Below, piece by piece: positions 22,539 to 30,489 of a stretch of 33,643 nt of DNA. The DNA lies in contig JACZJK010000062.1 of the NCBI GenBank assembly GCA_014860575.1, positions 1-33,643 on the forward strand, read 5' to 3'. The stretch's first letter is position 1; every line of letters starts with the position of its first letter. The notes under the pieces are model-generated. The model searched no databases. It saw nothing but the letters and a program-made list of their open reading frames with translations, and was not told the DNA's origin. The DNA is from Bacteroidales bacterium. Its GTDB lineage: Bacteria > Bacteroidota > Bacteroidia > Bacteroidales > JAAYJT01. A program made the position numbers and the translations under genes.

Positions 22539-22712
22539 AGTCCACTCCGAAGATTGATCTAACTCATAAATTACTCACTTCGTTCGTGAGATCGCTTCGC
22601 TAAGTTCCCTAAAGGAGACTTTCACCAACTTCTGATTTTTAGCCGTTTCCCTTTAGGGTCAGGGGCAAAAAACGGCTAAAAATCAGATTTTGGTGACTTT
22701 TCGGAGTAGACT
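22539..22712 (-). repeat. Dispersed palindromic repeat, copy A (MITE-like)
   Basis: A 174-base non-coding element in inverse orientation to copies B and C. The ends form a terminal inverted repeat (AGTCCACTCCGAA at 22539-22551 against TTCGGAGTAGACT at 22700-22712, 12 of 13 paired). Inside is a perfect 17-bp stem (22632-22648 with 22670-22686) and a second small hairpin (CTCAC / GTGAG). A 47-base stretch (22567-22613) is identical at 46 positions to the reverse complement of 24330-24376 in copy B. No ORF is present. Confidence 0.85.
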
Positions 22713-22781
22713 CAATCACTGAAACCACCGAAATAATACACTTACATTACCAGAACATTAAGGTTTTCTAAAGTGTTGCAC

Positions 22782-23478: not shown

Positions 23479-23712
23479 ATGGAACCCGGCAAAAACATAT
23501 ATCGGACTATCTCGAGAAAGATCACTATTAACCTTGCAAAGCAGCTCGAGCTAAAACAACAATTTGAGGACCTGCAAAATCATAATTTACTGCTGGAATC
23601 GCGGATTGAACAGTTGGTGAAAGAAATAAAAATTCTTTCCGACGAAAACAGCGACCTGAAAGAAATAGTGTTTGCTTTGAATCAGGAGAATGAGCGATAC
23701 AGAAGGCCGTGA
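23479..23712 (+). CDS. Small coiled-coil protein of unknown function
   Basis: A 77-residue protein, almost wholly coiled coil from about residue 17 to 73 (LAKQLELKQQFEDLQNHNLL, RIEQLVKEIKILSDENSDLK), with no signal peptide or membrane helix. It starts 19 bases after the zinc-ribbon/LysM gene, and its coiled coil could pair with the one in that protein. Sequence this regular is unlikely by chance, and the tight spacing supports a real gene. No family is recognised. Confidence 0.6.
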   Translation: MEPGKNIYRTISRKITINLAKQLELKQQFEDLQNHNLLLESRIEQLVKEIKILSDENSDLKEIVFALNQENERYRRP

Positions 23713-23783
23713 GGTTGTTTTAGCGATACTATCGCTACTCTTGGCACTCTTTAACCCGTAAGGAAAACTTTTTTGCTTCAAAA

Positions 23784-23815
23784 TTTGCAAAACGAACCCT
23801 TATCAACTATATTTG
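23784..23815 (+). promoter_or_regulatory. Candidate promoter (TTTG-N20-TATATTTG) with no intact gene after it
   Basis: TTTG (23784-23787), 20 bases, TATATTTG (23808-23815): both boxes match the Bacteroidota consensus. The next intact start codon is at 24606, almost 800 bases on, so this promoter now seems to serve decayed sequence or an unrecognised RNA. Confidence 0.5.
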
Positions 23816-23953
23816 GGCCATATACGCCCCAAAACTATATTTACATAATTTGACTATCCTTGTTATTTCAAAGAGGCTTTAATTTCTGTTTGATTTAAGC
23901 TTATCAATAAAGCATCATAAACATGATATTATTAATCATTTAAACAGAAGCCT

Positions 23954-24079
23954 ATGGAAAAGACTACTACAGTTTAATTACTTAACCTTTAACCTCAATT
24001 GCAGAAAATTTTTCTAAAACCTAACATTGTAATCGCAGAGAAAAAATTGAAGGTTGAACTTTCGGAACTGCTGCATTGA
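23954..24079 (+). pseudogene. Possible decayed reading frame
   Basis: An ATG opens MEKTTTV and then meets TAA. Reading on in the same frame gives LLNL, another TAA, and then an open run of 28 codons to TGA at 24077-24079. It lies downstream of a good promoter. It could be the worn 5' end of a lost exported protein, but the run is short enough to arise by chance. Confidence 0.25.
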
Positions 24080-24227
24080 TAATAAACAAAACACTCAACC
24101 ATTGTATAGCTAACACGCTAATTAAAGAATTCATTTACAGCGTAAATTTACCTCTTGCTTCCGGGAATGAGAGTTCACACTTGAATTACTAGATTACCCA
24201 TGAGCTTCGTCAATCGTAGTTGAAATT

Positions 24228-24407
24228 TTGAGTACACTTCGAAAAGGCACAAACTGCTGATTTTTATCTTTTATAGCCCCTGAACCCTATTTGGGAACAG
24301 TTAAAAATCTGCAGTTTGCGGAAGTCCCCTTTAGGGAACTTTGCGAAGCGATCTCACGAACGAAGTGAGTAATTTAGGGGTAAAATGACTTTTCGGAGCA
24401 GGCTCAA
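24228..24407 (+). repeat. Dispersed palindromic repeat, copy B (MITE-like)
   Basis: A 180-base element. The left end TTGAGTACACTTCGAAAAG pairs imperfectly with the right end CTTTTCGGAGCAGGCTCAA; the pairing continues outward through GTTGAAA (24219-24225) and TTTTCAAC (24408-24415). Inside are a central hairpin region (TGATTTTTATC onwards), the AAGTCCCCTTTAGGGAAC block and the hairpin GATCTCAC..GTGAG. It shares 46 of 47 bases with copy A over 24330-24376. No ORF. Confidence 0.85.
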
Positions 24408-24436
24408 TTTTCAACTTTCACGAAACGAAACAATAA

Positions 24437-24559
24437 GGCTGTGAATACTCGGCAAACAATTTTTACAAGCTTAGCCTTGCCGGTTCTCAACCCGGCATTT
24501 ATCTGGTTCGTGTTATCAATAGTCATGAATCAGTTACGGAGAAGATTATAAAACAATAA
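24437..24559 (+). pseudogene. Orphan tail of a T9SS-secreted protein (type A sorting domain fragment)
   Basis: A 40-codon open stretch directly after an in-frame TAA (24434-24436), with no start codon, ending at TAA 24557-24559. It reads SANNFYKLSLAGSQPGIYLV and then RVINSHESVTEKIIKQ. This is the typical end of a type IX secretion C-terminal sorting domain (G-x-Y-x-V-R-V ... EKIIKQ). Only about half of the usual 70-80 residue domain remains. It must be the 3' remnant of a lost secreted-protein gene. Repeat copy B lies immediately upstream. Confidence 0.75.
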
Positions 24560-24605
24560 GTTAGGTCAAAAATATTATTGAACACACCAGCAAAAGATCA
24601 ACATC

Positions 24606-26711
24606 ATGAAAAAGTCTGTTTTATTATTAATCTATGGAATTATATTATCAGGCATTCACGCCCAGGCGCCAGAGGGCATCAGCTACCAGGCCGTTATACG
24701 TAACGCATCAAACGAACTGGTAACCAATACCACAAATGGCATACAGGTTAGCATTATTCAGGGAACACCGGAAGGTACAGTGGTGTATTCCGAAACCCAC
24801 CTTCCGGTAAGTAATCTCAATGGCCTGGTAAGCTTTGTCATCGGGCAGGGGAATATTGTTTCCGGAGTCTTTACGGAGATTGACTGGGCTATCGGGCCTT
24901 ACTTTATCAAAACCGAAGCCGATCCTGCCGGAGGGACGAATTACACTATTAGCGGTACCAGCCAGATCCTTTCTGTACCTTACGCTTTTTACTCGGCAAC
25001 CACAGGTGATACTTCCAAATGGCAGAAAAACCTCAATGGTGACCTGTTTTACAACGATGGTAATGTCGGTATTGGTATTAGTAACCCATCAGCAAAACTG
25101 CATATTGAAACCCCTGTTTTCTCTGCAAAACTTGCTACAAATAATAATGGTGTTTTCGGTGAGCATTCTATTTCCGGAAGTTATGGATACCTTGGAGCTT
25201 CCAACGAGGGCGGCTTTGGTTATAGCCTGAATGGGTGGGGATTGCGTGGAATTTCCCAAAACGGATATGCCATATATGGTCTTAATACATTCTCTGGAGA
25301 TTATGGTTGGATTGGAGCTTTATCAGAAGGAGTTTACGGATACAGTGCAAGCGGATATGGAATAAAAGGACAGACAACAAACGGTATTGCCGTTTATGGC
25401 AATCATTCCGAAAGTGATAATCTTGGCTATATCGGATCACCGTCTGAGGGAGTTTATGGCAGAAGTGTGGATGGGTATGGAGTGCGCGGTTTAACCACAT
25501 CTGGATTTGCCATCTATGGCTGGACACTCGGATCAGGTTATGCAGGATATTTTGAAGGTAAAGCATACGTCGGAGGGAATATGGGCATTGGAGAAATCTC
25601 ACCCACCCACAAATTGTATATAAGTGATTTGCAAACTGGTTTGGCTTACCCTCTGAAAATAGAAAATAAGCATACCATAGTAAATGAAGCTGCCGTTGGT
25701 ATTTTGTTTTCAACGGGCGGATCAGGTACAACCGATAGGGGCAAAGGCGGCTTGGTTTATGAATACACAAGCACATGGAACCGGGGTTCATTTCATTTCC
25801 TTCAGAACAGTGAAGCCAATGCAAACAATCCCGTTCTGGCAAATACGGTCATGACAATTACCAACGACGGAAATGTAACGATTCCAAAAGGGATACTTTC
25901 TGTTGCAGCCAATGCAGGTCCCAACCTTATTATTCACGACCCGAATGCAGGACCCGACAGACCCGGTATTCAGTTTACGAACAATAATATTCATTATATC
26001 AGTGGCGATGACGGCTCGGATGAACAGTTCGGGTTTTATTCAAACTATGGAAATAACAGGATTTATGATGCTACGGTGGCAATTTTTGGAAAAGCTACAA
26101 GTAGCTGGGGAAAGTATTTAGGATTGACCCATAATGGAACCAGCGGACGCATTTTTACCGATGTCGGCGACCTTCTGCTGCAACCTGCCGGCGGGGTGGC
26201 CATTAATACAACCTCAGCTGGCACCTACAAGTTGAATGTCAATGGGAATGCCTATGTAAGCGGAGAGATAAAAACAGAAACAAAAACCGGCTATTTATCT
26301 ATTCCCCCAGCAGCCTTTGTTGCTAGCGGCCCTTATGATTATACTAACATAGGAGATGAGCTATGGGAAAATGAACTGTTATTACCTACTGTTATGTTCT
26401 TTGCTCCTGTTAATTTACCAGACAATGTTATAGTTGTTGAAGTAATTACCTATTGGCAGGATAACTCAACAGATGCAGGGGTTTTGCGTCTTGATAGGAC
26501 AAAACTTACAGATGGCAACTGGAATACACTGTCATTTCATGTTACGAATTGGCAAAGCTCTGTAAGAACCTCTATTACAGACACAACAATAGATACTCCA
26601 ATCATTGATAATGCAAATTATATATATCTATTGTTTGCATTTCTTACTGATGGCCCAAACATAAAATTTTACGGTGCCAGAATCAAATATACTTATGATA
26701 CAATAAACTAA
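24606..26711 (+). CDS. Secreted tail-fibre-like repeat protein
   Basis: A 701-residue exported protein: signal peptide (residues 1-20, LLLIYGIILSGIHAQ), then an N-terminal module (about 21-132: GISYQAVIRNASNELVTNTT ... ISGTSQILSVPYAFYSA) found on many Bacteroidota surface proteins. Tail-fibre motifs follow: VGIGISNPSAKLHIE (154-168) and MGIGEISPTHKLYIS (326-340). Between them lie three 40-residue repeats at 194-233, 234-273 and 274-313 (GYIGSPSEGVYGRSVDGYGV type), after a partial unit at 182-193. The last 140 residues look like a separate beta-sandwich. It does not end in a recognisable T9SS sorting domain. It probably lies at the cell surface; its partner is unknown. Confidence 0.78.
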   Translation: MKKSVLLLIYGIILSGIHAQAPEGISYQAVIRNASNELVTNTTNGIQVSIIQGTPEGTVVYSETHLPVSNLNGLVSFVIGQGNIVSGVFTEIDWAIGPYFIKTEADPAGGTNYTISGTSQILSVPYAFYSATTGDTSKWQKNLNGDLFYNDGNVGIGISNPSAKLHIETPVFSAKLATNNNGVFGEHSISGSYGYLGASNEGGFGYSLNGWGLRGISQNGYAIYGLNTFSGDYGWIGALSEGVYGYSASGYGIKGQTTNGIAVYGNHSESDNLGYIGSPSEGVYGRSVDGYGVRGLTTSGFAIYGWTLGSGYAGYFEGKAYVGGNMGIGEISPTHKLYISDLQTGLAYPLKIENKHTIVNEAAVGILFSTGGSGTTDRGKGGLVYEYTSTWNRGSFHFLQNSEANANNPVLANTVMTITNDGNVTIPKGILSVAANAGPNLIIHDPNAGPDRPGIQFTNNNIHYISGDDGSDEQFGFYSNYGNNRIYDATVAIFGKATSSWGKYLGLTHNGTSGRIFTDVGDLLLQPAGGVAINTTSAGTYKLNVNGNAYVSGEIKTETKTGYLSIPPAAFVASGPYDYTNIGDELWENELLLPTVMFFAPVNLPDNVIVVEVITYWQDNSTDAGVLRLDRTKLTDGNWNTLSFHVTNWQSSVRTSITDTTIDTPIIDNANYIYLLFAFLTDGPNIKFYGARIKYTYDTIN
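25185..25544 (+). repeat. Three in-frame 120-base repeats in the tail-fibre-like gene
   Basis: Units 25185-25304, 25305-25424 and 25425-25544 each encode exactly 40 residues with the pattern GY-I-G-x-x-SEGV-YG-x-S-x-x-GYG-x-x-G-x-T-x-x-G-x-AIYG. The DNA has diverged much more than the protein, so the repeats are old and kept by selection. Confidence 0.85.
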
Positions 26712-30344: not shown

Positions 30345-30489
30345 CTAAGACTGCTCTGAAAGTAACAAATTGCTGATTTTTATCGTTTTAGCCCCTGACC
30401 CCTAAAGGGGAAACACTAAAAATCTGTAATTTGTGGAAGTCCCCTTTAGGGGATTTAGGGGCGTATTAACTTTTCTGAGTGCATTCAAT
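30345..30489 (+). repeat. Dispersed palindromic repeat, copy C (MITE-like, shorter)
   Basis: About 145 bases in the same orientation as copy B. Shared blocks: CTCTGAAAG near the left end, TTGCTGATTTTTATCGTTTT, GCCCCTGACCCCTAAAGGGG, CTAAAAATCTG, GGAAGTCCCCTTTAGGGGA and TTAACTTTTCTGAG near the right end. It lacks the roughly 30-base hairpin block (GATCTCACGAACGAAGTGAG) present in A and B. No ORF. Confidence 0.8.

Follow-up and report, generated by a model that had tools for sequence, protein, structure and literature searches.

A MITE in the sorting domain of a probable type IX secretion cargo pseudogene, next to a fibre-like gene of a Bacteroidales bacterium

How does the last part of a secretion signal come to stand in a bacterial genome with no gene in front of it? 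The question is raised by a locus in a 33,643-nucleotide stretch of DNA from a Bacteroidales bacterium (hereafter the window, which is one contig, C62, of a draft genome of 4.4 Mb in 66 contigs), where forty codons at 24437–24559 of the plus strand resemble the end of a sorting domain of the type IX secretion system (T9SS). A first-pass annotation had taken this tail for the remnant of a cargo gene whose body was lost here, perhaps by a deletion linked to a repeat lying just upstream. We examined the tail, the DNA ahead of it, the repeat and the gene that follows, and compared them with related loci in this genome and in its relatives.

Results

A sorting-domain tail without a start

Translated, 24437–24559 reads GCEYSANNFYKLSLAGSQPGIYLVRVINSHESVTEKIIKQ and then a stop: 40 residues that close on GIYLVRV...EKIIKQ, directly preceded by an in-frame TAA at 24434–24436, with no ATG, GTG or TTG visible by eye ahead of the motif in the frame of the tail. 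The first-pass annotation had described just such start-less codons behind an in-frame stop, and its coordinates and translation agree with ours. Its assignment of the tail to the type A sorting domains is likewise borne out: TIGR04183 matches the 40 residues with 25.8 bits (E 7.7e-6), above the curated cut-off of 23, while PF18962 (Por_Secre_tail) reaches 18.5 bits, under its cut-off of 27. The match takes in the last 31 positions of TIGR04183 (42–72 of 72), with GIYLVRV and the KIIKQ end. The tail is not a complete TIGR04183 domain at the C terminus of an exported protein: one frame holds only profile positions 42–72, and because this frame has neither a start codon nor a signal peptide, the tail cannot enter the T9SS pathway; most likely, it now does nothing. 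Judged by titles and abstract openings, the papers listed on orphan sorting domains offered nothing relevant.

The pathway itself is present in the host. Scoring 150 of 211 candidates in its genome gave at least 150 matches to Por_Secre_tail, and there are profile matches to PorU (1380 bits) and SprA (2634 bits) as well; we therefore conclude that the host has a T9SS. The first-pass annotation had supposed that it has or had one, and had named PorU and SprA among the components to look for. Of PorU (the T9SS sortase) this genome holds three matches that exceed the cut-off, a tandem pair at C1:29053-36262 and a single one at C20:93518-96121. On contig C46, at 183-53473, ORFs with T9SS tails follow one another; most are very long (1362–3302 aa), and one has 308 aa.

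The earlier half of the domain lies upstream

The tail stands directly before an open gene on the same strand, which we call B (701 aa; 24606–26711), with 46 bp between the stop of the tail and the start of B. Elsewhere in the host genome, paralogues of B on contigs C43, C61 and C16, as well as a B gene in a congener (G001, on the contig numbered C62 in that assembly), have directly upstream a T9SS cargo gene encoding 252–341 aa, which we call A; B paralogues on C15 and C44 have no A upstream, and in relatives from other families the position before B is taken by a shorter A of 160–169 aa. The broken gene resembles these A genes in its place before B and in its similar tail.

With six A proteins, four of them from this genus, as tblastn queries against 23713–24605, the tail and the A protein of the congener G001 proved 53% identical across 38 residues, and a second piece was found at 24171–24227 on the plus strand: 19 codons that correspond to the sorting-domain stretch lying just ahead of the tail in the four A proteins of the genus. 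This upstream piece was matched by P0004 (locus L068; E 0.001), P0003 (L067; 0.009), P0006 (L072; 0.026) and P0005 (L069; 0.18), values that alone prove little, because a minus-strand match of P0003 to 24321-24184 in the same table, which has gaps and stops and which we take as chance, reaches E 0.005. Scored on the plus strand against a profile built without gaps from these four A proteins, the piece attains a value reached by none of 1000 dinucleotide shuffles, and the flank that holds the tail, scored against a profile of the four A paralogues, likewise exceeds all of 1000 shuffles.

The two flanks were also aligned separately in a frameshift-aware run, which set the upstream piece against residues 222–240 of P0003, 274–292 of P0004 and 185–203 of P0006, with no match to P0005; the upstream flank was cut at 24227 in this run, so that the alignments end there by construction. 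The tblastn matches end at 24227 for P0006 and at 24233, two codons inside the intervening element, for P0003, P0004 and P0005. On the downstream flank, the frameshift-aware alignments of P0004 and P0006 extend further upstream with frame shifts.

One in-frame TGA interrupts the upstream piece at 24201–24203, and another stands just before it at 24168–24170. Beyond, in 23713–24168, neither tblastn nor the frameshift-aware and profile alignments found further A sequence (421 of 1000 shuffles score as well), and the N-terminal signature of the A proteins, GG.ASG.GGS.SYS.GQ, was not found in the same interval. The first-pass statement that nothing else of the gene remains is thus true of the 5′ part, of which nothing recognisable is left in 23713–24168, and untrue of the 19 codons of the same domain that survive at 24171–24227. 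The 5′ part of the gene is lost or unrecognisable, which is an event separate from the insertion described below.

Two candidates in this region were rejected. A long alignment of P0005 to 23773–24049 (score 40), with many stops and frame shifts, is noise. A promoter-like TTTG-N-TAnnTTTG at 23784–23815, upstream of the pseudogene, has the pattern that we take to be that of Bacteroidota promoters; the pattern occurs 3 times in the window, a number within chance (2.17 expected from shuffles).

A MITE parts the two halves

Between the halves lies a 180-bp element (24228–24407) with imperfect terminal inverted repeats of ~20 bp, recognised by its dispersed copies, their alignment, its end pattern and its folding. 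It is the repeat copy that the first-pass annotation had placed 29 bases upstream of the tail, its last base being 24407. The window holds two more copies: one on the minus strand at 22545–22715, in the interval that separates purD from the LysM gene (80% over 172 bp in blastn, and alignment; one end at 22697–22715), and one on the plus strand at 30359–30488, internally deleted and intergenic (blastn, 83% over 94 bp, and alignment; right end at 30470–30488). At least six other sites in the host genome match the element at 82–87% identity (7 of 92 candidates scored), and aligned copies elsewhere have the common ends TTGAGTCCACTCCGAAAAG...CTTTTCGGAGTGGACTCAA.

A search for the right end on both strands of the host genome, allowing at most three mismatches, gave 77 sites, against 1 for the reversed control. 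Fifty-two of these sites form 26 inverted pairs of 49–183 bp, and 25 are unpaired. The pairs, taken as all minus/plus end pairs less than 200 bp apart and including the copy that parts the two halves, measure 146 bp in 16 cases and 180 or 183 bp in six; the others are of 143, 136, 149 and 49 bp. Matching 2-bp flanks occur in 21 of the 26, the copy between the halves among them (binomial p 4e-17, with chance assumed to be 0.1), while of the remaining five, two agree at 3 bases, one at a single base and two at none. Folded as single-stranded DNA, the element does better than 200 of 200 shuffles (z -4.68); no Rfam family was found in 23600–24700 at E up to 1. With inverted ends, many copies, a length too short for a transposase gene and a 2-bp target duplication, the repeat is a MITE.

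Several features of the wider set of copies were observed along the way. The host copies L096–L115 fall into two main size classes, of 146 and 180–183 bp. By eye, many are flanked by A/T-rich sequence (caaaattcaa, for example), and the target in the pseudogene resembles a short palindrome around the duplicated TT. Two elements in other families of the order, L010 and L011 (genomes G042 and G015), have by eye a similar interior, CCCCTAAAGGGG and CAAACTGCTGATTTTTA, with different inverted ends; to the eye such elements look like MITEs with a common core and differing ends.

Comparable elements are known from Porphyromonas gingivalis, where MITE239, MITE464 and BrickBuilt, as described in PMC4596501, are likewise short, present in many copies, bounded by terminal inverted repeats, accompanied by target duplications and devoid of a transposase gene. 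Their ends, in the part of the table compared, are unlike those of the present MITE. BrickBuilt duplications, on the account given there, vary in length and sequence, whereas the present ones are mostly of 2 bp (21 of 26), and the BrickBuilt elements are stated in the same account to be all intergenic, whereas the copy between the halves lies inside a former gene.

Insertion into the sorting-domain codons

The MITE is bordered by TT on the left (24226–24227) and TT on the right (24408–24409), the two copies of its target duplication. Once the second TT is set aside, 27 bases remain between element and tail (24410–24436, plus strand), that is, nine codons of which the last is the TAA. In the alignment to P0003, residue 240 falls on the codon at 24225–24227 and residue 250 on that at 24437, with the same gap of nine residues between them, and in a plain protein alignment the two pieces are nine residues apart in all four A proteins. 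Because the two halves stand in order, at the nine-residue spacing and with matching TT flanks, we conclude that the MITE entered the codons of the sorting domain and did not remove the gene by a deletion. The locus thus departs from an ordinary TIGR04183 or PF18962 domain in that the earlier domain codons lie across an inserted element and that cargo body, signal peptide and start are all absent.

The first-pass proposal, a deletion between repeat copies after which the tail alone stayed behind at one of them, draws on two facts: upstream of 24171 the body of the gene is largely missing, and there are repeat copies on both sides within the window. A recombinant of this kind, however, should join the left flank of one site to the right flank of another, whereas both flanks here come from one sorting domain, in order, correctly spaced and with the matching TT. 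With half of the domain still present on the far side, and the MITE inserted with a 2-bp duplication, we regard the deletion as very improbable.

Repeats invite misjoins, and the window is one contig of a draft of 66, so that a chimaeric join at the repeat deserves consideration. Yet a misjoin through the repeat would not set two domain halves at the exact spacing on either side of it, and the flanks of the element match by 2 bp just as they do in 20 other copies; an assembly error is accordingly extremely unlikely. We see hardly any chance, finally, that the tail is still in use, whether by frameshifting that joins the small frame to another protein or by an internal start. Its frame is open for 40 codons and has kept the conserved motif, but stops stand in frame at 24434–24436 and in the other half, there is no ATG, a 180-bp hairpin-forming element parts the halves, and no ORF of at least 80 aa joins the tail.

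Identity of the broken gene

We scored 56 tails against both pieces: those of the four A proteins and 52 others from the host genome (about one third of its tails, partly picked as the best matches to the orphan). The A proteins rank 1, 3, 4 (tied) and 12. The best, with a score of 138, is an A from the same genus, and second is a non-A cargo, L023, with 130. The nine-residue spacing is common among the tails of this genome. A search of the genome with the 40 residues, which the first-pass annotation had advised as a way to a full-length paralogue, did bring up A paralogues, as the 9th, 11th and 12th matches (the tail itself excluded). The sorting domain by itself thus fails to distinguish A from other cargo, and the identification relies chiefly on the place before B, to which the sequence adds support short of proof.

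To gauge how regular that place is, we searched 60 genomes, the host and 59 relatives, with a model made from an alignment of 15 A proteins, scoring at most 45 candidates per genome. Among the matches listed, 49 were full-length (model start at or before 14, end at or after 150), and 38 of these, spread over 24 of the 60 genomes, are followed on the same strand by a B match no more than 600 bp away, with 8–334 bp between the ends of the two matches; the other 11 have no adjacent B match. Of the full-length matches outside the model alignment, 23 of 34 precede B. Counted by genome, B occurs in 28 of 29 genomes with a full-length A versus 12 of 31 without (Fisher p 1e-6, uncorrected for kinship).

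The remnant might instead come from some other T9SS cargo and stand before B by accident. Tails of non-A cargo in the host score nearly as high as the best A, as L023 illustrates, and B without an upstream A is common: an A lies upstream of 38 of the 142 B rows listed and is lacking for 104, some rows being stretches of one protein. Against this stand the A-like genes directly before B in 38 of 49 cases, the same arrangement on C43, C61 and C16 of this very genome, and the best combined score, which belongs to an A of the same genus. We therefore hold an unrelated cargo to be unlikely; judged from its position before B and its best overall score, the broken gene is most likely an A.

The first-pass annotation had suggested that relatives without a cargo gene at this locus would speak against its loss here. 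Such relatives exist. In G001 the same left neighbours (a LysM protein and a coiled-coil protein) and pyrD are found with ~0.1 kb between them, and in G002 other sequence lies beside pyrD within the 1.1 kb present on its contig, so that neither congener has A or B at this locus. Since the neighbouring B is missing too, the whole A–B unit either arrived in this lineage or disappeared from theirs, and the locus of the relatives can neither decide about A alone nor speak against a former cargo gene. That a cargo gene was lost here, as first proposed, is upheld.

The A and B proteins

The A proteins have a common N-terminal signature, GG.ASG.GGS.SYS.GQ...G....G.Q, and end in a T9SS tail. Compared with NCBIfam and Pfam, five of them match no model above cut-off except the T9SS tail models; a 3-coathanger stack model comes near threshold in the four A proteins of the genus, with 12.8–23 bits against the required 26. 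In the A protein on C61 (L068:1491-2516, 341 aa), the central 3-coathanger-like segment is present twice.

The B protein of the window has a signal peptide by eye, no T9SS tail that we could find, and an EGISYQAVIRN domain resembling Bdello_MAT_N. Against NF053851, the model of the MAT (mosaic adhesive trimer) N-terminal domain, it scores 31.9 bits with E 1e-7, whereas the curated cut-off lies at 60. The same model is matched by all 13 B proteins tested (that of the window, those at L072 and L067, and ten more) with 23.7–43.7 bits, in every case below 60. Behind this N-terminal domain, eight of the 13 have a named domain above cut-off (FISUMP in four, an Lcl-type domain, Lcl_C, in two, Laminin_G_3 in one and Peptidase_S74 in one), and five have none there, the window B included and one with a sub-threshold collagen match.

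No Pfam family matches the window B above cut-off, comparison by sequence with solved structures gave nothing at E up to 0.1, and PHROG gave nothing at E up to 0.01. Its middle region would appear to be fibre-like. Searched with B, the contigs of the host genome show seven loci, none of which covers most of B in one segment. Residues 440–555 are 59% identical to part of a protein from a Phycisphaerae MAG (L087:1459-4260), which by eye likewise begins with an F.YQG-type domain; the fibre segment is thus common to two phyla.

The B proteins resemble the MAT fibres of Bdellovibrio, as presented in PMC10769870, in matching the MAT N-terminal model weakly and in the varied domains that follow in eight of 13. 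They differ in that all scores lie under 60 bits and in that, in Bacteroidota, a T9SS cargo gene often precedes B. The main text of PMC10769870 contains no word that begins with Bacteroid. We accordingly liken B to a MAT fibre in its working and do not call it one.

Discussion

Two halves of one sorting domain, in register across a MITE with its ends and its duplicated target, and an open B gene beyond them: this much the locus displays outright. The tail is very probably the 3′ end of a pseudogene of A, a T9SS cargo gene before B, split by insertion of the MITE into its sorting domain. On this account, A would have been a small protein, once expressed and exported to the cell surface through the T9SS, whose gene lay directly upstream of B. 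A non-autonomous MITE of 180 bp would have jumped into the codons of the sorting domain, duplicated two bases and parted the halves of the secretion signal. Whether by this insertion, by earlier decay or by both, A would have fallen out of use; its stop codons and the disappearance of its 5′ part may predate or follow the insertion. B can still be made, and it may use A proteins from the stop-free A genes on C43, C61 and C16.

As a pseudogene remnant, the tail is ordinary; the interesting by-product is the A–B pair. Adjacency and co-occurrence suggest that A is a surface partner of B. The frequent occurrence of B without a neighbouring A means that, at some B loci, A would have to act in trans or be unneeded. 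Titles and abstract openings, which make a weak test, turned up no published account of the A–B pair, of FISUMP together with type IX secretion, or of MAT in Bacteroidota. More tentatively, and with a good deal of doubt, A and B might be the parts of a two-part surface device of Bacteroidota, in which A, exported by the T9SS, is fixed on the surface and by its conserved N-terminal domain holds the base of B, a trimeric fibre of MAT-like kind with variable tips; in the window, it is conceivable, with the same reserve, that the A partner of such a device was broken by the MITE while the fibre gene was kept.

What produced the tail, a MITE in a sorting domain, can be located to the exact base. 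The tail matters mainly as a lead to the A–B pair, in which the gene of a small T9SS cargo precedes that of a fibre-like protein whose base resembles that of MAT. If the two-part device is real, it would answer, in another phylum, the question of which surface element MAT fibres bind; and if A anchors B, this would explain how such fibres reach the surfaces of Bacteroidota and stay there.
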